The notes below the pieces were generated by a model, which saw only the letters and a program-made list of their open reading frames with translations, was not told the origin of the DNA and did no database searches. 64,000 bases of DNA from an uncultured Paracoccaceae bacterium (GTDB lineage Bacteria; Pseudomonadota; Alphaproteobacteria; Rhodobacterales; Rhodobacteraceae), in the NCBI GenBank assembly GCA_947493335.1, contig CANLQO010000001.1, forward strand, positions 1,116,001 to 1,180,000, read 5' to 3'. Numbering within the stretch: the first letter of the stretch is position 1; each line of letters begins with the position of its first letter. Positions 7,900 to 31,250 of this stretch are shown here, piece after piece. The position numbers were made by a program, and so were the translations under genes.

Positions 7900-10093
<2,194 letters not shown>

Positions 10094-10298
10094 TCCTTGT
10101 CCTATCTTGTAGTGGCCCGCCGCCGCGATACAGAAAGTTGTGCAAAATGAAAAGAAGTCAGGTTTTCCACCATTGAGAGAATCGTAACGCCTTGCGAGCA
10201 TCATTTCATTGAACAGACATGGGGATGTCGAAAATGAAATTTGTAGTGTTGATGTGTGGTTGGGCGACGGCAACCGGGTTCGCAACCCTGATCGCCGG

Positions 10299-10709
10299 TT
10301 AATCCTTGGTTTTGGTGCCGTATAATTCCAGACGGTGCCCAATCAGTTTGTAGCCAAGTTTGGCTGCAATTTTTTCCTGAAGGGCCTCGATTTCCGGGTC
10401 CAGAAATTCAATGACTTCGCCTGATTGCATATCAATCAGGTGGTCATGATGGTCCTGATCTGCGTTTTCATAACGTGCGCGACCATCGCCAAATTCATGC
10501 TTTTCCAGAATGCCGGTCTCTTCCAGCAGTTTTACTGTCCGGTAGACGGTCGCCAGTGAAATGCGTGGATCGGCAGCGGCGGCGCGCTTGTAAAGCTCTT
10601 CCACATCAGGGTGATCGGTGGCAGCTTCCAGCACGGCGGCAATCGTTCGGCGCTGTTCGGTCATGCGCAGGCCTGCGGCTTCGCAACGTGACAGGATGGT
10701 GTTCGGCAT
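10299..10709 (-). CDS. fur: Fur-family metalloregulator (Fur/Mur type)
   Basis: A 136-residue transcription factor with an N-terminal winged helix (LRMTEQRRTIAAVLE about 14-28; ISLATVYRTVKLLEE about 50-64) and a C-terminal dimerisation/metal domain with the histidine motif DHHDHLIDMQSGEVIEF (about 86-102). The CxxC zinc motifs of enteric Fur are absent, as in alphaproteobacterial Fur/Mur proteins, where Mur answers to manganese. Metal specificity is therefore uncertain. The ATG at 10709 (MPNTILSRCE) is preferred; an upstream in-frame ATG at 10736 is possible. It is divergent from the DUF533 gene. Confidence 0.9.
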   Translation of the reverse strand: MPNTILSRCEAAGLRMTEQRRTIAAVLEAATDHPDVEELYKRAAAADPRISLATVYRTVKLLEETGILEKHEFGDGRARYENADQDHHDHLIDMQSGEVIEFLDPEIEALQEKIAAKLGYKLIGHRLELYGTKTKD

Positions 10710-10866
10710 GTGGGCCCCGGTCTGTGTTCTGGTCATGCCATAACGCGCAATCCGCGCGGTTTCCAGACGGGCCGGGTGGCGGAAGGGCGCTTTGCTGCGG
10801 AAATTCCCCTTTGGAAGCGTTGGTGGGCCTGTCAGGCTGCATGGGATTGAACCAAGGGGGATTACC

Positions 10867-11685
10867 ATGAGCTTGATGAAGACATTGGCGAAAGTTGCAA
10901 TCGGTGTGGCAGTCGCGAAAGGCGCGCAGAAGATGATGCAGGGCGGGGGTGCCCGCAGCAGCGGGCAGGTGGCCGCAGACGGGCTTTTTCGCGGTAATCA
11001 TTCGCCGCAAACGGCCGATGCACAGGCTGGCAATCCTCTTGAAGGCATGATGGACAATATCCTAGGCGGAGGTGCCGCACAGGGCGGTTTGGGCGGCTTG
11101 CTGGATCAATTTGCGGGCAGCGACGGCGTGGATACGGCAGCGCGTCCGCAATCGCCGCAGGGATTGGAAGATTTGCTTGGCGGGTTGACCGGTGGCGCGG
11201 CTGGTGGCGGCTTGGGCGGTCTTCTGGGTGGACTGGCAGGAGCATTGGGCGGCGGCGGTGGCGGTCTGGGCGATGTGCTGGGATCGCAGTTCGACAGCAC
11301 GCCGCAAAAGGCTAAAACCCCCAGTCAGGATCAGGAAGCAGCGGCAGGCCTGATGCTGGCCGCGATGCTACAAGCCGCGAAATCCGACGGTACCTTTGAT
11401 CAGGGCGAGCAGGCCAAACTGATGGATAAGCTGGGTGATGTCAGTCAGGCGGAGCGTGATTTCGTCAACCGGGAACTGCAAAAGCCCGTGGATGTCGCAG
11501 GGCTTGCCAATGCGGTGCCGCAGGGGATGGAACGTCAGGTTTACATGATGTCGGTGCTGGGCATTGATCTGGATAGCCAGGAAGAGGCGAAATATCTGCA
11601 CGATCTGGCCTCTGCATTGGGCATTCAGCCACAAGCCGTCAACGCGGTCCATGACAAGCTGGGCGTGCCGCGAATCTACCGCTAG
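10867..11685 (+). CDS. DUF533 / TerB-like tellurite-resistance fold protein
   Basis: A 272-residue protein starting at ATG 10867 (MSLMKTLAKVAIGVAVAKG). The N-terminal third has a weak hydrophobic or amphipathic helix. A glycine-rich linker (about 95-145, repeats of GGLLGGLAG type) leads to a helical TerB/YebE-like C-terminal domain (about 155-270) with acidic residues in helices. No biochemical role is established for DUF533 proteins; envelope-stress links are known for YebE. It is transcribed away from fur, so Fur/Mur control from the shared region is possible. It overlaps the convergent phzF end by 4 nt. Confidence 0.8.
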   Translation: MSLMKTLAKVAIGVAVAKGAQKMMQGGGARSSGQVAADGLFRGNHSPQTADAQAGNPLEGMMDNILGGGAAQGGLGGLLDQFAGSDGVDTAARPQSPQGLEDLLGGLTGGAAGGGLGGLLGGLAGALGGGGGGLGDVLGSQFDSTPQKAKTPSQDQEAAAGLMLAAMLQAAKSDGTFDQGEQAKLMDKLGDVSQAERDFVNRELQKPVDVAGLANAVPQGMERQVYMMSVLGIDLDSQEEAKYLHDLASALGIQPQAVNAVHDKLGVPRIYR

Positions 11686-21965: not shown

Positions 21966-22400
21966 TCAACCCATCAACTTGCGCGGGCCGGGGCCGTCGC
22001 GCCCCTGCACATCGGCGGGGTTGTAAAGCGCGCAGGACTTGAGGCTGAGGCAACCGCAGCCGATGCAGCCATCCAGCGTATCGCGCAGCGTTTCGAGCGC
22101 TGCGATCTTTGTGTCGATCTCGGCCCGCATCAACCGGCTGATCCGGCTCCAGTCTGCTTTGGTCGGGGCCTTGTGGGCGGGCAGGTGGGCCATGTGGTCG
22201 GCAATGTCCGCCAAGGCAAAGCCCAGCTTTTGTGCCGCCATGACAAAGGACAGCCGCCGGATGTCAGCACGGCCATAGCGGCGATGACCGCCCGCATTGC
22301 GCACCGGGTGCACGATACCGTGGGTTTCGTAAAACCGGATTGCCGAGACCGCGAGCCCGGTGCGCGCGGCAAGGTCGCCAATGGTCAGGCCCTGGGGCAT
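21966..22400 (-). CDS. soxR: Redox-sensing MerR-family activator SoxR
   Basis: A 144-residue MerR-type dimer that activates promoters with long spacers when its [2Fe-2S] cluster is oxidised by redox-cycling compounds. The N-terminal helix-turn-helix is LTIGDLAARTGLAVSAIRFYE. The cluster ligands are Cys112, Cys115, Cys117 and Cys123 in the order C-x2-C-x-C-x5-C, exactly SoxR-like. The start ATG is at 22400. A perfect SoxR box lies 17 bp upstream and is shared with the divergent small-protein/VOC operon. Confidence 0.97.
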   Translation of the reverse strand: MPQGLTIGDLAARTGLAVSAIRFYETHGIVHPVRNAGGHRRYGRADIRRLSFVMAAQKLGFALADIADHMAHLPAHKAPTKADWSRISRLMRAEIDTKIAALETLRDTLDGCIGCGCLSLKSCALYNPADVQGRDGPGPRKLMG

Positions 22401-22412
22401 GAAAGAAACATC

Positions 22413-22443
22413 TTGATCTCAAGTTAACTTGAGAAATTAAAAA
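22413..22443 (+). promoter_or_regulatory. SoxR box with overlapping promoter
   Basis: CTCAAGTTAACTTGAG at 22418-22433 is a perfect palindrome identical to the core of the classical SoxR operator. Rightward it lies between TTGATC (22413-22418) and an A/T-rich -10 candidate at about 22438-22443, a 19-bp spacer that fits MerR-type promoters. It can serve both soxR and the divergent 59-residue gene. Confidence 0.9.
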
Positions 22444-22478
22444 CAGATTCGCAGAGACTTGAATAGAGGAGAGTTACA

Positions 22479-22658
22479 ATGGCACAGGACAAGACAATGC
22501 GGGTTTGCGTCGACCCCGGCGTGATCAGCGCGCTGCAGCGCGATGGCGTTGGCTGGGGCCACGATCTTGATTGCGGCTGTTTTCATGTGGAACAATCGCG
22601 CTTGCCGAAAGGGCCAATCTCGCGGTTTCGGAACTGGATGAAGAAGGGAATTCAATGA
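22479..22658 (+). CDS. 59-residue cysteine-containing protein of the SoxR-controlled operon
   Basis: ATG 22479 follows GAGGAGAG by 4-5 nt and opens a 59-codon frame ending in TGA at 22658, which overlaps the ATG of the VOC gene. The protein has three cysteines (Cys9, and DCGCF in the middle) and a basic, Trp-containing C-terminus (SRFRNWMKKGIQ). There is no signal peptide or membrane helix. I do not recognise the family. Position as first gene behind a SoxR box suggests a role in the response to redox-active compounds. Confidence 0.7.
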   Translation: MAQDKTMRVCVDPGVISALQRDGVGWGHDLDCGCFHVEQSRLPKGPISRFRNWMKKGIQ

Positions 22659-23047
22659 TGGCCTATCTGGAACATGTGAACATTACTGTTGCAGATCCGC
22701 GCGCCACAGCGGCGCTGTTGTCGGACCTGTTCGACTGGCACACCCGCTGGGAAGGCGAATCCATGAATGGCGGCGGCTATACGGTGCATGTGGGCACAGA
22801 GACGAGCTATGTCGCGGTCTATTCAGGCCATGCGCCGGAACAAACGGTGCCTAAGGCCGACGCCAGCTATGCCACGCGCGGCGCGATGAATCACATCGCG
22901 GTGGTGGTGGATGATCTGGACGCAACGCAGGCCCGGATCGAGGCAAAGGGTTATCAGACGCATTCCCACGCCGACTACGAGCCTGGTCGCAGGTTCTATT
23001 TCCACGAGGACAACGGTGTGGAAATTGAGGTTGTTCAGTACGATTGA
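22655..23047 (+). CDS. VOC (glyoxalase/bleomycin-resistance) family protein
   Basis: A 130-residue vicinal-oxygen-chelate protein with two beta-alpha-beta-beta-beta modules: YLEHVNITVADPRATAALLS at the start and MNHIAVVVDDLDATQARIEA in the second half, ending VEIEVVQYD. Candidate metal ligands are His8, His86 and a C-terminal Glu. Such proteins act as glyoxalases, dioxygenases, antibiotic-modifying or -binding proteins. It starts inside the stop of the 59-residue gene (ATGATG/TGA overlap), so it is coupled and presumably SoxR-activated. Confidence 0.85.
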   Translation: MMAYLEHVNITVADPRATAALLSDLFDWHTRWEGESMNGGGYTVHVGTETSYVAVYSGHAPEQTVPKADASYATRGAMNHIAVVVDDLDATQARIEAKGYQTHSHADYEPGRRFYFHEDNGVEIEVVQYD

Positions 23048-23134
23048 TCAAATCGAGCGGCTGCGCCGCACCTGATATTTTGCGCCAGCCCAGGGGCTGG
23101 CGCGGATGAGTGGGCTGTCTGCCCCCTCAAGCAC

Positions 23135-23162
23135 CCCCGAAAGTATTTTTGACCAGAAGAAG
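23135..23162 (+). repeat. Interspersed extragenic repeat, copy 3
   Basis: Same element as at 6231-6257 with one additional A (CCCCGAAAGTATTTTTGACC, ending AGAAGAAG). It lies between the convergent VOC and MmcQ/YjbR genes. The remainder of the 116-bp gap is GC-rich with no gene. Confidence 0.85.
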
Positions 23163-23180
23163 ATCAAAGGTCTTTGATCT
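23161..23180. terminator. Perfect hairpin over the mmcQ/yjbR stop codon
   Basis: AGATCAAAG, loop GT, CTTTGATCT is a perfect inverted repeat that includes the stop codon of the minus-strand gene (23164). It directly follows interspersed repeat copy 3 and may form a 3' hairpin on either transcript. Confidence 0.55.
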
Positions 23181-23505
23181 GCGCCTGCGCTCGTTTGGTA
23201 AGGCTCGACAGGATGATGTCGTAAGAGACGGTGATCCGATGGGTGAGTTCTTCTGGATCGGCGGTGAGGGGAATGGATATCCACGACCGATGCAAGTAGC
23301 GCGCCTTTGTTCCAGCGCCTGCGTCGATCAGCATCTGGGCTGTTTCGACGCTGTCCGTCTTGACCGAGACCACATCGCCAAGTGCGCCGACGATGGCAAA
23401 GAGCTTGCCGCCGACCTTCCAGCTGTCGTGGCCCTCGCCCAGGTTATGATCAAGCGTCGCCCCCTTGTGTGACGCGCAGATTGTGTTGACGGTGTCGCGG
23501 CTCAT
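23164..23505 (-). CDS. MmcQ/YjbR-family protein
   Basis: A 113-residue cytoplasmic protein with the CyaY-like DNA-binding fold assigned to MmcQ/YjbR. Family-like segments are MSRDTVNTICASHKGA at the N-terminus, HDSWKVGGKLFAIVG near 26-40, and HRSWISIPL followed by ISYD-type TVSYDIILSSL at the C-terminus. The physiological role is unproven in the family. The start ATG at 23505 leaves 16 bp to the divergent DUF1697 gene, so the two promoters must overlap coding DNA. Confidence 0.82.
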   Translation of the reverse strand: MSRDTVNTICASHKGATLDHNLGEGHDSWKVGGKLFAIVGALGDVVSVKTDSVETAQMLIDAGAGTKARYLHRSWISIPLTADPEELTHRITVSYDIILSSLTKRAQAQIKDL

Positions 23506-23521
23506 GAGGATAGGCTGGGCT

Positions 23522-24055
23522 ATGGCGGATGATTTGACAAGATGGGTTGCGCTTTTGCGCGGGGTCAACGTGGGTGGCGGCAACAAGGTGCCGATGGCCG
23601 CTTTGCGCGAACTTGCAACGGGCCTGGGGTGGCGCGATGTGAGAAGCTACATCGCCTCTGGCAATCTGGTGTTTTCCGCCCCTGACGGGAGATTGGCCGA
23701 GGATCTGGGCGATGCGATGCGGCAGCAGATGGGGGTGGATGTGCCCAATCTGGTTCTGTCCGGGGAGGCGCTGCGGCTCGCGCTTGCGTCATGCCCGTAT
23801 CCGCCGGACGCAGGCAAGGCGGTGCATGGGTTCTTTTGCGCGGCGCCGCCGGTTATCGACGCAACCCGGCGCGATGCCCTTGCGGTCGCGTCGGAAAGGC
23901 TGGAGGTCCGGGACCACGTGGTGTGGATGTATGCGCCTGACGGGTTTGGCCGGTCAAAGCTGGCCGCCAAGATCGACAAGGTCATCACAGGTACTGAATT
24001 CACCGCCCGCAACCTCAATACAATTCGCAAACTTGTGGAAATGCTGGACGGATAG
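23522..24055 (+). CDS. DUF1697 family protein
   Basis: A 177-residue protein with the DUF1697 opening WVALLRGVNVGGGNKVPMA (about residues 7-25) and the conserved VRSYIASGNLVFSA (about 40-53), then a C-terminal SKLAAKIDKVITGTEFTARN segment. The family is widespread and uncharacterised. The start ATG at 23522 is divergent from mmcQ/yjbR. The cysS leader region follows 24 bp after its stop. Confidence 0.85.
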   Translation: MADDLTRWVALLRGVNVGGGNKVPMAALRELATGLGWRDVRSYIASGNLVFSAPDGRLAEDLGDAMRQQMGVDVPNLVLSGEALRLALASCPYPPDAGKAVHGFFCAAPPVIDATRRDALAVASERLEVRDHVVWMYAPDGFGRSKLAAKIDKVITGTEFTARNLNTIRKLVEMLDG

Positions 24056-24079
24056 CTTTGGGCGTGCTAGGCCGCAGCT

Positions 24080-24124
24080 ATGAAAAAGACCTGCATCATC
24101 ATTTGCTGCATTATTCCCTGCTGA
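24080..24124 (+). CDS. Putative Cys/Ile leader peptide of the cysS-cimA operon
   Basis: ATG 24080 to TGA 24124 encodes MKKTCIIICCIIPC: four of 14 codons are Cys (all TGC) and five are Ile. It ends 81 nt before cysS, which charges tRNA-Cys and overlaps cimA, the first enzyme of the citramalate route to isoleucine. The codon content thus matches both downstream genes, as expected for ribosome-stalling attenuation. The codons TGAAAAAG at 24081-24088 are perfectly complementary to CTTTTTCA at 24139-24146. The ribosome site is weak, and such a short ORF could arise by chance. Confidence 0.55.
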   Translation: MKKTCIIICCIIPC

Positions 24125-24130
24125 ACACCA

Positions 24131-24180
24131 GCGGGCCGCTTTTTCACGTTTCACTCTGATCCTGATTTCGCTAAGCCCGC
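24131..24180 (+). promoter_or_regulatory. Candidate attenuator structures before cysS
   Basis: GCGGGC (24131-24136) is complementary to GCCCGC (24175-24180) and also lies in a small local hairpin AGCG-GGC-CGCT followed by TTTTT (to 24144), which resembles a weak terminator. The T-run is also complementary to the leader-peptide start (24081-24088). These pairings are mutually competing. No folding was computed. Confidence 0.4.
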
Positions 24181-24205
24181 CGGCAAAACCCGTGCGTGAG
24201 GCGCC

Positions 24206-25639
24206 ATGACACCGATCCGTTTCCACAACACCAAGACCCGCCGCAAAGAGGATTTTGTGCCGGCCATTCCGGGCAAGGTCAGCATGTATCTCTGCGGCCC
24301 GACGGTCTATGACCGCGCACATCTGGGCAATGCCCGCAATGTGCTGCTGTTTGATGTGCTGTTTCGGCTGATGCGTCATGAATTTGGCTCAGAGAACGTG
24401 ACCTACGTGCGTAATTTCACGGACGTCGATGACAAGATCAACGCGCGCGCTGCAGAAAGCGGGCGGGCGATTGGCGACATCACGGCAGAAACCACGCAAT
24501 GGTATCATGACGATATGGATGCGCTGGGGGCGACGCGGCCAACCCATGAACCGCGTGCAACCGAATATATCCAGCAGATGATCGAGATGTCAGAAGTCCT
24601 GATCGAAAACGGACATGCATATGAAGCAGAAGGTCATGTGCTGTTTGCTGTGGAAAGCTATGCCGACTACGGCAAACTGTCTGGCCGTTCGATTGATGAC
24701 ATGATCGCCGGTGCACGGGTCGAGGTCGCACCCTACAAGCGCAACCCGATGGACTTTGTCCTGTGGAAACCGTCGCCTGACGGGGTGCCGGGGTGGGACA
24801 GTCCCTGGGGCTATGGACGGCCCGGTTGGCATATAGAATGCTCGGCCATGTCCAAGGCGCTTTTGGGTGAGACATTTGACATTCACGGCGGCGGCAACGA
24901 TCTGCAATTCCCACACCATGAGAATGAGATCGCGCAATCGGCCTGCGCGCATCCGACCGGCGAGTTTGCGCGCGTCTGGCTGCACAACGAGATGTTGCAG
25001 GTCGAGGGCAAGAAGATGTCCAAGTCGCTGGGCAACTTCTTTACCGTGCGCGATTTGCTGGACAAGGGCGTGCCCGGTGAGGTGATCCGCATGGTGTTCC
25101 TGACGACGCATTACAGCAAGCCGATGGACTGGACCGAGGTCAAACGCAACGAGGCCGAAGCCACGTTGCGCAAGTGGTATGGAATCCTGCATGGCCATGG
25201 ATTTGGCACCAAATTGATTTCCGCGCTGGAGGCGGAAGGCAAATGGCAGCCTGATGCAGAGTTCATCGGGGTGTTGGCCAATGACGTGAACACCCCCGGC
25301 GCGATGGCCCGACTGCATGTGTTGTCCAAGGGGCGCACGCCCGAGGCTCTGGCCGGTTTTGCCCATGGATTGGGGATGCTGGGGTTGGTCAATGACTGGG
25401 ATGCCATTCCGATGTTCGATGGTGGCGAGGCCGGGCCTGACGTCGCCCCTGCCGTGGCGGCAAAGGTGGATGCGCTGCTGGCCGCACGGGCCAAAGCGCG
25501 CAGCGACAAGGACTGGGCGACCGCCGATCAGGTACGCGATGTCCTGAATGCAGCGGGCGTACAGGTCACTGACGTGGGCGGGCAGGCGACATGGTCCCCG
25601 GGTCCGGATTTTGACGCCGCCAAATTGGGAGAGCTGTGA
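24206..25639 (+). CDS. cysS: Cysteinyl-tRNA synthetase
   Basis: A 477-residue class I synthetase that charges tRNA-Cys. It has the N-terminal zinc ligand Cys30 in [15 protein letters not shown], with the HIGH-type HLGN at about 39-42, the zinc-binding [10 protein letters not shown] and [18 protein letters not shown] segments, and an intact KMSKS loop near 271. The C-terminal DALR-like helices end in the family's [13 protein letters not shown]. The ATG at 24206 follows GAGG. The stop overlaps the cimA start by one base. Confidence 0.98.
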
Positions 25640-27258
25640 TGGGCAGGGAACGGCTCTACCTTTTTGATACCACGCTGCGGGATGGGCAGCAGACCCAAGG
25701 CGTGCAGTTTTCGACCTCGGAAAAAGTACGGATCGCAGAAACGCTTGATGCCTTGGGTGTCGACTACATCGAAGGTGGCTGGCCCGGTGCCAATCCCACC
25801 GATAGCGAGTTCTTTGAGGCTGGCGTCAAGACCCGCGCCACGATGACCGCCTTTGGCATGACAAAGCGCACAGGACGGTCTGCCGAAAATGATGACGTGT
25901 TGGCGGCGGTGATGAATGCAAGCACGCCTGCGGTGTGTCTGGTGGGCAAGAGCCACCAGTTCCACGTGGAAACCGCCCTTGGGATCACGCTGCCCGAGAA
26001 CACTGAAAATCTTGCGATGTCATTTGCGCATCTGGTCAAGAATGGCCGCGAGGCGTTGTTTGACGCAGAGCATTTCTTTGACGGTTACAAGGCAAACCGG
26101 GACTATGCGCTTGAGGCGGTACATGCAGCCTATGACGCCGGTGCGCGCTGGATCGTGCTGTGTGATACCAATGGCGGGACATTGCCTGAAGAGGTCTCTT
26201 CCATCGTGTCCGATGTCATCGACAGCGGCATCCCCGGCGACCATCTGGGCATTCACACCCACAACGATACCGAAAACGCAGTGGCCAATTCGCTGGCTGC
26301 GGTCCTTGCGGGGGCGCGGCAGATTCAGGGCACGCTGAACGGATTGGGCGAGCGCTGTGGCAATGCCAATCTGACCAGCATCATCCCGACGCTTCTGCTC
26401 AAGGAACCTTTTGCGAGCCGATTTGAGACCGGTGTGACCCTCGAAGGCCTGAAGGGTCTGCGCAAGGCCAGCCGCATGCTGGATGATATTCTGAACCGGG
26501 TGCCGGCAAAGCAGGCGCCCTACGTGGGTGCCAGTGCATTTGCGCACAAGGCGGGGCTGCACGCGAGCGCCATTGCCAAGGATCCCACGACATACGAACA
26601 CATCGACCCCGGCGAAGTTGGCAACAGTCGCATCGTGCCGATGTCCAATCAGGCCGGGCAGTCGAACCTGCGCCAGCGTCTGGCAGAGGCCGGGCTGGAC
26701 GTCGACAAAGATAACCCCGCTTTGCCGCGCATCCTTGAGCGGATCAAAGAGCAAGAGGCGCGGGGGTATTCCTATGACACGGCGCAGGCGTCATTTGAGC
26801 TTTTGGCGCGGGCGGAGTTGGGGACCTTGCCCACCTTCTTTGAGATCAAGCGCTACCGCGTGACGGTGGAGCGTCGCCGCAACAAACACAACCAGATGGT
26901 CAGCATCTCAGAGGCTGTTGTCGTCACCAAGGTTGATGGCAAGAAGTACCTGAATGTCAGCGAAAGCCTTGGCCCCGATGGGTCCGATCAGGGGCCGGTG
27001 AACGCCTTGAGCCGCGCGCTTGCAAAGGACTTAGGTCGCTATCAGGGCATGATCGAGGATATGAAGCTGGTGGACTTCAAGGTGCGGATCACCGATGGCG
27101 GGACAGAGGCCGTCACGCGGGTCATCATCGACAGTGAGGACGGCAAGGGACGCCGCTGGTCCACGGTCGGTGTCTCGGCCAATATTGTTGACGCCTCTTT
27201 CGATGCACTTGTGGATGCAATCAACTGGAAGCTTATCCGGGACGGTGCGGGTGGCTGA
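25639..27258 (+). CDS. cimA: (R)-citramalate synthase
   Basis: A 539-residue enzyme that condenses acetyl-CoA and pyruvate to citramalate, the first step of the threonine-independent route to 2-oxobutyrate and isoleucine. The HMGL-like barrel begins LYLFDTTLRDGQQTQGVQFS and has the metal-binding HTHNDTENAVANS. The C-terminal half is a LeuA-type regulatory dimer domain (VTVERRRNKHNQMVS onward), where isoleucine normally feeds back. The ATG at 25639 overlaps the cysS TGA; a GTG one codon upstream is possible. Translational coupling with cysS is likely. Confidence 0.95.
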   Translation: MGRERLYLFDTTLRDGQQTQGVQFSTSEKVRIAETLDALGVDYIEGGWPGANPTDSEFFEAGVKTRATMTAFGMTKRTGRSAENDDVLAAVMNASTPAVCLVGKSHQFHVETALGITLPENTENLAMSFAHLVKNGREALFDAEHFFDGYKANRDYALEAVHAAYDAGARWIVLCDTNGGTLPEEVSSIVSDVIDSGIPGDHLGIHTHNDTENAVANSLAAVLAGARQIQGTLNGLGERCGNANLTSIIPTLLLKEPFASRFETGVTLEGLKGLRKASRMLDDILNRVPAKQAPYVGASAFAHKAGLHASAIAKDPTTYEHIDPGEVGNSRIVPMSNQAGQSNLRQRLAEAGLDVDKDNPALPRILERIKEQEARGYSYDTAQASFELLARAELGTLPTFFEIKRYRVTVERRRNKHNQMVSISEAVVVTKVDGKKYLNVSESLGPDGSDQGPVNALSRALAKDLGRYQGMIEDMKLVDFKVRITDGGTEAVTRVIIDSEDGKGRRWSTVGVSANIVDASFDALVDAINWKLIRDGAGG

Positions 27259-27967
27259 ACCTGACGCCTTTTTCATCCTGCACGCTGACCTGCCGCGCGA
27301 AGGGCCGGGCCTGCCAGAGGATGTGGCATGGGTCGCCGCGCAAGTCGCGGTTCCCGCAAAGGGACGAATTCTGGACGCGGCCTGCGGCCCCGGTGCGGAT
27401 ATTGCGGCCTTGCTGGATGTGTTTGATCCCAACGCGGTGATCGGCGTCGATTGGATCGAACACTTTGCCGTCGCCGGGGCGGCACGATATGCAGATGACA
27501 CTCGCGTGACCATCATGCAGGGCGACATGTTCGACCAATCCGGTCCCTTTGACCTGATCTGGTGCGCCGGTGCGATATATTTTGCCGGGATCACGCAATC
27601 ATTGAAAAATTGGGATGCAGCCCTCGCGACCGGTGGGGCCATTGCTTTCACGACACCGGCCTATTTTACCGAAAACCCTACTGCCACGGCCCACGCCATG
27701 TGGGAGGGCGAAGGGAACATCCCGACACGCTCTCAGATCGCGGAACAGATCGCGACCGCCAGGTTTCACTTGATTGCCAGCCGCCCTCTGAGTGACGCGG
27801 CATGGCATGACTACTACGATCCGATGCAGGCGCGGATCGCGCAACTGCGCCCCAACGCGGACCCTGCTTTGGCCAAAGTGCTGGACGAAGGCGCCCGGGA
27901 ACGGAACGCGTGGCAGGCCGCAAAGTCCGAGACTGGATATGACCTTTGCGTGGTGCGCCGGGCATGA
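27251..27967 (+). CDS. Class I SAM-dependent methyltransferase
   Basis: A protein of about 238 residues with a Rossmann methyltransferase core: ILDAACGPGADIAALLD (motif I, near residues 37-53), acidic IGVDWIE (motif II) and FDLIWCAGAIYF. The start is a GTG inside the end of cimA (27251; GTG 27245 is equally possible); no ATG is available before the domain. The stop overlaps the next gene as ATGA. The acceptor is unknown. Confidence 0.85.
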   Translation: MAEPDAFFILHADLPREGPGLPEDVAWVAAQVAVPAKGRILDAACGPGADIAALLDVFDPNAVIGVDWIEHFAVAGAARYADDTRVTIMQGDMFDQSGPFDLIWCAGAIYFAGITQSLKNWDAALATGGAIAFTTPAYFTENPTATAHAMWEGEGNIPTRSQIAEQIATARFHLIASRPLSDAAWHDYYDPMQARIAQLRPNADPALAKVLDEGARERNAWQAAKSETGYDLCVVRRA

Positions 27968-28719
27968 GTTTCGATGCATGTGCTGCATTGGTCGAGCGCG
28001 CCGACCCTGACCGTTTTCGTGCCATCATGGCAGGGCCTGTTGTCGCGCGGCGCGTTCTCTTCCCGATTTTTGCATTTAACGTTGAAGTCAGCCGCGCCCC
28101 TTGGGTCACGCAGGAACCGATGATCGCAGAGATGCGCCTGCAATGGTGGCGCGACGCGCTGGAAGAGATTGCGGCTGGTGGCCCTGTGCGCAAACACGAG
28201 ATCGTTGATGCGCTGGCCGAGGTGCTTGATGACGCAGGCGCGCGCTGCCTTGATGCATTGGTCGCGGCACGGCGCTGGGACATCTATAAAGACGCGTTCG
28301 AAGACGCGGACCACCTTCGAGAATACCTTGATGCCACAACTGGCGGTCTGCTTTGGACTGCAGCGCGTCTTTTGGGACCTGTCGAAGAGCGCGTCATCCG
28401 CGACTTTGGCTTTGGCGTCGGTGTGGCGAACTTGCTGCGCGCGGTGCCAGAGCTTGAGGCGCGCGGCCGCATCCCACTGGTGGACGGCACGCCACAAGGT
28501 GTGCGTGATCTTGCGCAGGCGGGACGCGATGCGCTGCGACGTGCTGCGACTGAACGCGCGGGCGTCTCGCGGGGGGCCGCACCTGCCTTGTTGACCGGAT
28601 GGGCCGCGCGGCCGGTATTGGATCAGGCCATCGCGTCCCCGCAGCGGGTCGTTGACGAAGCATTGGGGCCCAACGCGCTACGGCTTTCTTGGGTCGCTTT
28701 GGTGGGCTGGTGGCGCTAA
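27964..28719 (+). CDS. Squalene/phytoene synthase family protein
   Basis: A 251-residue all-helical protein of the trans-isoprenyl diphosphate head-to-head synthase family. FAFNVEVSRAPW (about residues 35-46) and MRLQWWRDALEEI (about 57-69) match the family N-terminus, but the DxxxD aspartate motifs of true phytoene synthases are incomplete. This resembles the NDUFAF6-like subgroup linked to respiratory complex I assembly more than carotenoid enzymes. The start overlaps the upstream methyltransferase stop by 4 nt. It overlaps the convergent MFS gene end by 4 nt. Confidence 0.75.
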   Translation: MSFDACAALVERADPDRFRAIMAGPVVARRVLFPIFAFNVEVSRAPWVTQEPMIAEMRLQWWRDALEEIAAGGPVRKHEIVDALAEVLDDAGARCLDALVAARRWDIYKDAFEDADHLREYLDATTGGLLWTAARLLGPVEERVIRDFGFGVGVANLLRAVPELEARGRIPLVDGTPQGVRDLAQAGRDALRRAATERAGVSRGAAPALLTGWAARPVLDQAIASPQRVVDEALGPNALRLSWVALVGWWR

Positions 28720-29936
28720 GCTGCCGAACGCGGGCGCATGATCAGCCAGATCAATGATCCGCCCGCCAGCACCAGAAATGGCACCATGGCAAGGTTGACG
28801 GCCGTCCAACCCTCAACCGCAGAACCGCCTGAGCAATTCATCAAGCCGCCTGACGCAAGACTAGCAATTGTCACCATACCAAAGACGATCATGTCATTGA
28901 CGCCTTGGATGCGGCCGCGTTCTTCGGGCGCATGGGCCCCAGCGAGCATTGTCGTGGCCCCGATAAAGCCAAAGTTCCAGCCAAGCCCCAAGAGGATCAA
29001 TGCGACGTAAAAATTCGTCAGTTCAACGCCCTGCAGCGCCACGAGCCCGGCAACCGCGAGAATGGCAAGACCAATGCCCATGATCCGCTCGACCCCGAAT
29101 CGTGCAATCAGATGACCGGTGAAGAAAGAAGGCGCAAACATCGCCAGCACATGGCCCGTCACCACGTTTGAGGCGTCGGAAACACTGTATCCACAGCCCA
29201 CCACCGCCAATGGGGTGGAGGTCATCACAAGGTTCATCAGGGCATAGCTGACCATCGCGCAGATCACGGCGACAAGTATCCGCGGCGTGCGCAACATCTC
29301 GGCGGTGGTGCGTCCCGCGGCGTCACCCGGCGCAGACACGGGCGGTTTGGGGATACGCAGAAAAACGAAGAGCGCCATGCCAATCACATTCAGTGCAATG
29401 GCGGCATAATAGACCGGCAGGAACCGCATCACAGTGGCATCTGGGTTGTTGTAGGTCAGCCAACTGACCAACTGCGGACCGATGATGGCCGAGATCAACC
29501 CACCAGCCAGAACATAGGAGATCGCCTTGGGCCGGAACGATTCCGATGCTGTATCTGCAGCCGCAAACCGGAAGAATCCCTGCGCCGACATGTAAATGCC
29601 TGTCAGATAGGACCCGACGAGAAACAGGACAAAACTGCCAAGTGTGATGGCATAGGCCGAGATGGCCGCCCCGACCAGACCACCAATAGCCCCGACATAG
29701 AAACCGGCCTGACGGCCATAGCGTTGCATGAAAGGGCTAAGCCACGGTGCCGTCGTCATTGAACCGAAAACAATCAGTGAAATCGGCAGCGTTGCAAAAC
29801 AGGCAATTGGTGAAAGTTGCTGACCAGCAAGGCCACCGACCACGAAGATCATCGTGATCTGGCTGCCCAGAAGCGCCTGTGCTGCGACCAGCACGGCGAC
29901 ATTACGGCGGGCAAGACTGTCGTTCACCTCTGTCAT
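28716..29936 (-). CDS. MFS transporter
   Basis: A 406-residue carrier with about twelve membrane helices. The start ATG at 29936 (MTEVNDSLARRNVAVLVAAQ) puts the first helix right behind a short cytoplasmic N-terminus. A conserved loop after helix 2 reads PWLSPFMQRYGRQAGFYVGA, a variant of the MFS GxxxDRxGRR signature. The substrate is unknown. The next gene upstream on this strand is cobB, 42 bp away, so it may be the last gene of that transcript. Confidence 0.9.
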   Translation of the reverse strand: MTEVNDSLARRNVAVLVAAQALLGSQITMIFVVGGLAGQQLSPIACFATLPISLIVFGSMTTAPWLSPFMQRYGRQAGFYVGAIGGLVGAAISAYAITLGSFVLFLVGSYLTGIYMSAQGFFRFAAADTASESFRPKAISYVLAGGLISAIIGPQLVSWLTYNNPDATVMRFLPVYYAAIALNVIGMALFVFLRIPKPPVSAPGDAAGRTTAEMLRTPRILVAVICAMVSYALMNLVMTSTPLAVVGCGYSVSDASNVVTGHVLAMFAPSFFTGHLIARFGVERIMGIGLAILAVAGLVALQGVELTNFYVALILLGLGWNFGFIGATTMLAGAHAPEERGRIQGVNDMIVFGMVTIASLASGGLMNCSGGSAVEGWTAVNLAMVPFLVLAGGSLIWLIMRPRSAA

Positions 29937-29978
29937 GGCGCCATCGGTATGCCTGTCGTGAGGCGGGCGCAATGGCGA

Positions 29979-31250
29979 TCAATCGTTTGAAATAATATGC
30001 GCGAATGACCCGCTGACGCGGCCTTGTCGCAGCCCTATCGGTCCAAGGGCGTGGCCCTCCGCATCAAAGGCATCAAAAAGCGGCGTGCCTTCGGCCCGCA
30101 GCGTAGTGGCATAGTGAAATTCATGCGCCTTGATTGCCGGGGCTTTCGTGCCGAACGGAAGCAGGGTGCGATAGCCGAGGTGAAGTTTCCGGGTGGCAAA
30201 ACTGGTCTCGAGCGGTAGCAGACCGGCCATCTTGTAGGTGATCCCATCGGCATCGGTCAGGGTTTCGCCCAATGTCATGTATCCACCGCATTCTCCATAA
30301 ATATCAGTCGTTTGTGCGGCATTTCTCAAGCTATTGAGAAAGATATCCGCACCAGCGAGTTGCGCTGCATAAAGCTCTGGGTAGCCGCCAGGCAGAATGA
30401 TCTTGTCGGCCTTGGGCACAGGTTCATTGGCAAGCGGCGAAAAGGTGCGAATGTCGATGCCCATATGCGCCTGCAGCGCCAGGTCGTAGGCATAGGTAAA
30501 GGAAAAGGCCGCATCACGCGCAATCGCAATCGATTGGCCGTGCCGACAGTCCTGTAACGCGGAGTTTTGCAAGGGGCTGCTGGCCGTGATCGGGTTGGCC
30601 AGCGCCAACAGAGCGTCAAGATCAATGGATGCGGCCATGATGTCGGCGGCTTGCTCCAAGAACATCTCCAGATCAGGCATTTCGCCAGCCTGAACAAGAC
30701 CAAGGTGCCTGGATGGGCGTGCAAGATTTGCGTCTCGCATCACGCTGCCAAGGACCGGTATGTCAATCGGTGCCAGTGCTGCGCGCAACATGCGTTCGTG
30801 GCGTAGTGACCCGACCCTGTTGAGGATGACGCCTGCAATCCTGACTTTTGGGTCTTGATTGGCAAAGCCGTTGACAATGGGCGCGATGGATTGCGCCATG
30901 GACGCCGCATCGACAATCAGCACGACCGGCACATCCAGTATATCGGCAAGGTCGGCGGTTGCACCTTTGCCGTCGGGCGGCGCGCCGTCGAAAAGCCCCA
31001 TCGCGCCTTCAATCAAAAGCGGTCCGGGTCCGGCAGCAACCTCTTTGATCCGCGCAGGCGTCATCGCCCAGGCGTCAAGGTTGAAACAGGGCTGACCACA
31101 GGCTGCGGCATGGAATTGCGGATCAATGTAGTCGGGGCCGGATTTTGCCGCGCGAACCTTGATGCCGCGCCGCGTGAGCGCCCGCAGAATGCCCAGCGTA
31201 ATGGTGGTTTTGCCAGAGCCAGAGGAGGGGGCCGAAAGGATCAGTCCCAT
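29979..31250 (-). CDS. cobB: Cobyrinic acid a,c-diamide synthase
   Basis: A 423-residue two-domain amidotransferase that amidates the a and c side chains of the corrin ring with glutamine and ATP. The start ATG at 31250 begins MGLILSAPSSGSGKTTITLG, containing the P-loop. The C-terminal type I glutaminase domain has the nucleophile motif YGECGGYMTLG (near 312-322) and a distal His. It acts in the aerobic pathway after hydrogenobyrinate. The 106-bp gap to cobA holds no gene. Confidence 0.95.
   Translation of the reverse strand: MGLILSAPSSGSGKTTITLGILRALTRRGIKVRAAKSGPDYIDPQFHAAACGQPCFNLDAWAMTPARIKEVAAGPGPLLIEGAMGLFDGAPPDGKGATADLADILDVPVVLIVDAASMAQSIAPIVNGFANQDPKVRIAGVILNRVGSLRHERMLRAALAPIDIPVLGSVMRDANLARPSRHLGLVQAGEMPDLEMFLEQAADIMAASIDLDALLALANPITASSPLQNSALQDCRHGQSIAIARDAAFSFTYAYDLALQAHMGIDIRTFSPLANEPVPKADKIILPGGYPELYAAQLAGADIFLNSLRNAAQTTDIYGECGGYMTLGETLTDADGITYKMAGLLPLETSFATRKLHLGYRTLLPFGTKAPAIKAHEFHYATTLRAEGTPLFDAFDAEGHALGPIGLRQGRVSGSFAHIISND

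Follow-up and report, generated by a model that had tools for sequence, protein, structure and literature searches.

Leader and operon in the window

The window, which is the whole 64,000-nucleotide stretch of DNA analysed here, carries on its forward strand a cysteinyl-tRNA synthetase gene, cysS, followed directly by a citramalate synthase gene, cimA (Table 1). Both identities rest on NCBIfam models that score above their cut-offs (TIGR00435, 436.8 bits versus 340; TIGR00977, 595.3 bits versus 450), and the cysS stop codon and the cimA GTG (25636) overlap by 4 nt; a preliminary description of this DNA had called cimA translationally coupled. A DUF1697 gene lies upstream. Downstream of cimA, a methyltransferase-like open reading frame (ORF) and an ORF of the squalene/phytoene synthase family are closely packed at 27095-28719 and possibly share the cysS–cimA transcript.

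Upstream of cysS is a 14-codon ORF (uORF), running from an ATG at 24080 to a TGA at 24122-24124, which encodes MKKTCIIICCIIPC with four Cys and five Ile codons and ends 81 nt before the cysS ATG (24206). The preliminary description had singled out this ORF for its Cys and Ile codons, and a census of the window bears out the choice: among 1273 ORFs of 9-20 amino acids (ATG, GTG or TTG starts, both strands), it alone has at least three Cys together with at least three Ile, and it ranks first in combined Cys and Ile content with nine, the runner-up having six. Rfam covariance models, including those for T-box and amino-acid leaders, gave no match at E ≤ 1 in window positions 22000-30000 and none at gathering score in the cysS loci of six relatives.

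Table 1. Leader, genes, putative promoter elements and RNA helix arms at the cysS–cimA locus (window coordinates).
Feature	Position	Strand	Basis or partner
Putative -35 element CTGGAC	24044..24049	+	aligns with -36 to -33 profile peak
Putative -10 element TGCTAG	24065..24070	+	aligns with -13 to -11 profile peak; +1 would be the first base of the uORF start codon
Leader ORF MKKTCIIICCIIPC, predicted leaderless	24080..24124	+	sequence; 6/6 congeneric species; two orders
P0 5' arm (uORF start), TGAAAAAG	24081..24088	+	pairs with 24139-24146; z -13.8, 109 leaders
P1 5' arm (uORF end and stop)	24117..24123	+	pairs with 24129-24135; z -9.4
P1 3' arm	24129..24135	+	pairs with 24117-24123
P2 5' arm GCGGGC (antisequestor; shares bases with P1 3' arm)	24131..24136	+	pairs with 24175-24180; region z -7.1
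P0 3' arm (T run), CTTTTTCA	24139..24146	+	pairs with 24081-24088
P2 3' arm GCCCGC, same bases begin P3	24175..24180	+	pairs with 24131-24136
P3 sequestor, 24175-24183 with 24190-24202, touches Shine-Dalgarno	24175..24202	+	minimum free energy (MFE); region z -5.5
cysS Shine-Dalgarno GAGG	24198..24201	+	sequence; 4 nt 5' of ATG 24206
cysS, cysteinyl-tRNA synthetase	24206..25639	+	TIGR00435, PF01406
cimA, citramalate synthase, GTG start overlapping cysS stop	25636..27258	+	TIGR00977 above cut-off

Conservation, codon content and predicted leaderless start

A putative cysteine attenuator has been described upstream of cysS as uORFC-8-2 (Brewer 2021, PMC8632094). The main text of that study gives 145 examples, all in Rhodobacterales, names Cys as the signal, reports an intrinsic terminator and places the tandem Cys codons usually at positions 14 and 15. 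The motif shares with the window, whose nearest named relatives are Rhodobacterales, and with its relatives a tandem-Cys uORF 5' of cysS, for which ribosome-mediated attenuation is likewise proposed; with gene, clade and tandem Cys codons in common, uORFC-8-2 as given there is this leader in Rhodobacterales. The tandem codons differ in position, as here they fall at codons 8-10 in 68 of the 76 leaders that bear them; a different start was possibly counted (PMC8632094, main text). The preliminary description had presented a leader for two amino acids as new: its cysteine half was thus already published, and the part that stands is the isoleucine codons and their tie to cimA, as a word search of the main text of PMC8632094 returned no isoleucine, cimA, citramalate or Rhizobiales. 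What is added here to uORFC-8-2 is the Ile codons, the cimA linkage, the leaderless start, the helices P0–P3 and the members in Rhizobiales.

The family sample comprised 130 genomes, 128 with cysS, of which 104 loci were fetched (one, L209, with only 89 nt upstream); the Rhizobiales sample (the order of an Ensifer genome) comprised 61 genomes, 59 with cysS and 53 of these fetched; and named loci came from the best 80 of 591, many of them from outside Rhodobacterales and Rhizobiales. Rhodobacterales leaders were located not by their codons but by a profile of the DNA 3' of the uORF stop, which was seeded from loci with a uORF already noticed and therefore favours homologous leaders, though not particular codons. 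At a cut-off of 9 bits, 104 loci pass: 95 uORFs were taken directly and six by hand (L026, L040, L137, L161, L162, L182), and three loci are without a uORF (L017, L135, L178). The conservation that the preliminary description had proposed to look for is seen: all six species of the window's genus have the ORF, and the ORF and both of its codon types are kept across two orders, a like Cys and Ile leader being found upstream of cysS in Rhizobiales. Judged by these sequence comparisons, the 14-codon ORF is real and conserved.

In 90 leaders (the 95 direct uORFs minus the window's five congeners; 1139 residues), Ile makes up 30.2% and Cys 22.9% of residues, versus 4.3% and 0.6% in the CysS and CimA proteins, and neither of the other two frames over the same bases exceeds 0.7% Ile or 1.4% Cys. 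The third base of the Ile codons varies (ATT 196, ATC 146, ATA 2), and the Cys codons are TGC 242 times and TGT 19 times. A list of 118 Rhodobacterales leaders, 17 of them added by eye (23 by eye in all), has Cys codons in 117 and at most one Ile in only two; tandem Cys is present in 76 and absent from 42. The run CCI is written TGC TGC ATT in 58 of 71 cases, a nucleotide conservation beyond coding need. At codons -5 to -3, counted from the stop, Cys or Ile stands in 87-96% of the 118. Going by these sequences, the Ile codons are as constant as the Cys codons, which is new here.

Leaders range from 10 to 20 codons and differ in how many Cys and Ile codons they hold and in how these are ordered and spaced (MKQNAAICCICIIC, MTRCSIIICICITD, MNRIRIIIGCIPC), which fits the counting of codons and does not fit a fixed peptide. 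An arrest peptide, whose specific nascent chain would use its cysteines to sense a metal, a thiol or the redox state, is suggested by the shortness and cysteine richness of the product; given that variation, and one leader without Cys (MNAPNRIIGIIIGG, at the cimA-bearing locus L029), we consider it very improbable.

The 113 Rhodobacterales leaders aligned on the uORF ATG show a TTG-type -35 element at -36 to -33, a -10 element at -13 to -11 and C at -1 in 84%, with no Shine-Dalgarno peak; 50 Rhizobiales leaders have like promoter peaks at near-identical spacing. This spacing suggests that the ATG itself provides the first transcribed base, so that the uORF is predicted to be leaderless. No promoter was detected in 23950-24330 by a scan for the strict sigma-70 consensus. 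A start downstream of 24080, which the preliminary description had held to be fatal to its proposal, is not what the profile points to, and the poor ribosome site that it had counted as a weak point is indeed missing, but leaderless initiation would explain its absence.

Association of the leader with cimA

We applied a fixed rule for a leader (ATG, 9-20 codons, at least two Ile, at least one Cys and at least four combined) to cysS loci with and without cimA downstream. It holds in 152 of 181 cimA-bearing loci versus 0 of 17 lacking cimA: 102 of 119 versus 0 of 8 in Rhodobacterales and 50 of 62 versus 0 of 9 in Rhizobiales (Fisher p 1.1e-12, without correction for ancestry). Shuffled cimA-bearing sets would yield 1.6 and 1.7 such uORFs in the two orders, respectively. 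Excluded from the count were eight loci short downstream, four with less than 150 nt upstream (L068, L095, L209, L210) and repeats. The 17 loci lacking cimA represent few lineages; three come from one genus, and the CysS of another, L189, is 40% identical to that of the window. Some of the 29 cimA-bearing loci that fail the rule have weaker leaders (L029) and some have none (L017, L135). The leader is also absent from all ten cimA-bearing alphaproteobacterial loci placed outside both orders (for some of which no order was given), and hence cysS and cimA can be paired without it.

Two lineages only bear on what happens when cimA is lost or detached. The genus of G129 has no cimA match in any of its three genomes, and its leaders (MDWICCLCRA, MEWICCPC and MDWICCLCRA) hold three Cys codons and one Ile; on sequence, this is the closest to a natural experiment on cimA loss, and, with the co-occurrence above, it favours the match of Ile codons to cimA drawn in the preliminary description. 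In the genus of G073, cimA lies elsewhere in four genomes and was not found in two. Seven of 12 fetched cysS loci of that genus (L271-L276, L279) have a five-codon ORF, M[I/N/K]WRC, at the promoter-proximal ATG, a possible minimal leader conserved within one genus; codon 2 is Ile in five, Asn in one and Lys in one, so that five of these seven short leaders retain one Ile despite the detached cimA. Of the remaining five loci, one has MNCFF and four have no such ORF. No such leader stands at cysS in G016 or G075, which have no cimA match and whose genera are represented by one genome each, or in G163 (Falsigemmobacter), with cimA elsewhere in the genome. An Ile-only leader upstream of a detached cimA was found in neither of the only two loci checked (L194, L195).

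In Sinorhizobium meliloti CP090106.1 (L191), where cysS has the leader MKTVICIICRNIIR, three GFA-family genes and pip come next on that strand, and then a stretch with no listed gene (9789-11674), within which tblastn detects cimA. This 3.7 Mb record is labelled pSymB, an apparent label error for the chromosome.

Alternative helices and a proposed two-signal switch

Both pairings quoted in the preliminary description are present and are here called P0 and P2 (Table 1). The covariation that it had suggested looking for is found as well: when the pairing energy of each leader's own segments was compared with that of segments exchanged among 109 leaders, z was -13.8, -9.4, -7.1 and -5.5 for P0, P1, P2 and P3, while three Rhodobacterales control pairings stayed flat (+1.0, +3.0 and +0.1), none beating its exchanged partners and one being worse. 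Some shared ancestry is left in by this permutation test, yet controls of the same ancestry stay flat. In Rhizobiales, for which P0 and P1 alone were covered, z was -8.6 and -6.9; the control there (uORF start with the P1 3' window, z -4.5) is not clean, because its window overlaps the P0 target. P1 and P2 share GCGGG, and P2 and P3 share GCCCGC, giving the 1:2, 2:3, 3:4 layout of trp; as in trp-type leaders, the helices are mutually exclusive and one overlaps the ORF end, by energy and by permutation, and the short ORF is rich near its stop in codons that match the regulated pathway.

The naked leader of the window folds as P0, P1 and P3 (MFE). A ribosome edge placed at the stop swaps P3 for P2, and at stop+11 P3 is back. 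Predicted accessibility of the Shine-Dalgarno sequence is 0.54-0.69 for edges at stop-6 to +6, 0.04-0.34 at +8 to +20 and 0.33 for the naked RNA; the cysS start codon moves the opposite way, from 0.19-0.39 (stop-6 to +6, P2) to 0.55-0.67 (+8 to +20, P3). Averaged over 110 leaders, Shine-Dalgarno accessibility is 0.42-0.43 at edges stop-6 to stop+8, 0.36-0.37 further upstream and 0.34-0.35 at stop+12 to +16, with intermediate values for the naked RNA (0.387) and for edges at +10 (0.368) and +20 (0.371). The modelled mean difference is small (0.42 versus 0.35). Accessibility is higher at -6 than at +12 in 77 of 110 leaders (p 4.8e-4), a value that is not a clean prior test, as this pair of edges was picked after a first model had failed and before the scan was finished; that model (113 leaders, stop+9 versus a mid-cluster codon) gave no difference (p 0.34, 57 of 113 as expected). 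If the front edge of the ribosome is assumed to lie 9-11 nt past the A-site codon, the edges with an open site correspond to a ribosome stalled at one of codons -5 to -1. The accessibility model leaves out P0, which might form even while a ribosome sits at the stop.

The T5 run that the preliminary description reported after a small hairpin is present (24117-24135), but a terminator scan matches it at the level of chance (1 versus 0.5 ± 0.9 in shuffles), and a ribosome at the stop would block the stem. We rejected it as an intrinsic terminator: the hairpin is probably not one, and the switch probably ends in sequestration of the Shine-Dalgarno sequence.

We propose that a ribosome-mediated attenuator governs the cysS–cimA operon, and from the comparative evidence we judge ribosome-mediated control very likely. 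Transcription would start at the A of the uORF ATG, where a ribosome would initiate on the leaderless ORF. Were Cys-tRNA or Ile-tRNA short, the ribosome would stall on the Cys or Ile codons three to five codons before the stop; its edge would block P1, leaving GCGGGC free to form P2 with GCCCGC, and P2 would exclude the sequestor P3 and keep the cysS ribosome site open. With both amino acids ample, the ribosome would reach the stop, about 8 nt 5' of the CGGG motif, and cover the P2 arm, so that P3 would close the cysS ribosome site. cimA would follow through translational coupling where it overlaps cysS, as in the window, and where it is further away could be reached through reduced Rho polarity. 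The leader would act as an OR gate, each codon type matched to one gene and either shortage raising both. In E. coli, too much cysteine brings on isoleucine starvation by inhibiting threonine deaminase, which offers a possible reason to read both amino acids.

Whether both codon types are signals is the main point on which other explanations divide. The published proposal (PMC8632094, main text) is that a ribosome stalled on tandem Cys codons keeps an intrinsic terminator from forming; Ile would then be incidental or structural. In favour are the near-universal Cys codons (117 of 118 Rhodobacterales leaders), the T run that comes after the P1 hairpin in the window and the nucleotide-level conservation of the CCI runs. 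We find this cysteine-only form unlikely, as Ile equals or exceeds Cys at codons -5 to -3: of 113 Rhodobacterales leaders, 110 have Ile there, 104 Cys and 101 both, and in Rhizobiales 50 of 50 have Ile versus 10 of 50 with Cys. Further, the P0 and P1 arms flank the window's Ile codons, and across leaders the third base of Ile codons varies; the genus without cimA has fewer Ile codons; and the terminator match is at chance level. P1 as a terminator would moreover mean read-through in fed cells, because a ribosome at the stop itself blocks P1. That isoleucine is instead the main signal and the Cys codons a minor second input, cimA being the gene most in need of amino-acid control, seems to us equally improbable. 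The leader is tied to cimA, Rhizobiales leaders hold 28.5% Ile versus 11.0% Cys, and Ile occurs in all 168 listed leaders versus 167 with Cys; these figures may be biased by selection, as all 50 Rhizobiales leaders were picked by eye or for their Cys and Ile content, and 23 Rhodobacterales leaders by eye. Yet the genus without cimA keeps three leader Cys codons, and Cys stands at codon -5 in 63% and at codon -4 in 68% of the 113 Rhodobacterales leaders.

A further possibility leaves leader and signals as proposed and changes only the output, to transcription through Rho or a non-canonical terminator. This would directly reach a cimA 1-3 kb downstream, and distances of up to 3098 nt between cysS and cimA in Rhizobiales fit poorly with control at the ribosome site of cysS; a T run also lies on P1. 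The covarying alternative of P2, however, is P3, which touches the ribosome site, and not a terminator, and no T run follows P3 in the window. We hold a transcriptional output to be possible but doubtful. Sensing of both Cys and Ile with output at the Shine-Dalgarno sequence, which overlaps with that alternative in its signals, is the best single reading, and the comparisons between leaders make it reasonably probable. Somewhat less firmly, we favour the wider statement that one leaderless uORF, common to two orders, reads amino acids of two unrelated pathways, each matched to one operon gene (Cys to the tRNA synthetase, Ile to the first synthesis enzyme), that either shortage induces both genes, and that leader codons track operon content, Ile codons having been lost from the leader where the operon lost cimA.

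In the thr and ilvGMEDA attenuators of E. coli, a single leader likewise carries codons for at least two amino acids. These belong to one pathway, unlike Cys and Ile here, where moreover one gene encodes a tRNA synthetase for the other amino acid. The rnTrpL/trpL leader of S. meliloti acts through alternative helices and an intrinsic terminator. As outlined in PMC10117765, it resembles the present leader in being a leaderless 14-codon uORF that serves as an attenuator leader, and differs in answering to one amino acid and preceding a biosynthetic operon. Actinobacterial leaders also have runs of Cys codons close to the stop codon of a short ORF, but stand 5' of cys or cbs genes and, as described, are cysteine leaders only; for those of Mycobacterium, no conserved terminator hairpin is reported (PMC1262725). 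Among the matches listed from PMC, judged by titles and abstract openings, none besides PMC8632094 concerned a Cys and Ile leader or attenuation of cimA.

If the two-signal reading is right, attenuators can integrate amino acids of separate pathways, and the codon content of a leader can be taken as a record of operon content, a rule testable in hundreds of genomes for which genera without cimA beside cysS provide a natural experiment. It would also give the citramalate route in alphaproteobacteria a likely isoleucine control and widen the Rhodobacterales Cys-leader motif to Rhizobiales.

Two observations concern other cysS genes. In L200 (G039) and L264 (G045), short ORFs that cluster Cys codons and lack Ile (MARNTVNFETAAARRGGPRWCCA and MTCRCCRKNTTESLA) lie 5' of cysS, with no cimA found within 1.5 and 5.5 kb, respectively; by sequence they may be Cys-only leaders that arose separately. 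In three genomes of the family (G084:C241, G109:C54, G159:C57), a second and diverged match to cysS lies in an open frame of 447 amino acids, with 49-52% identity.
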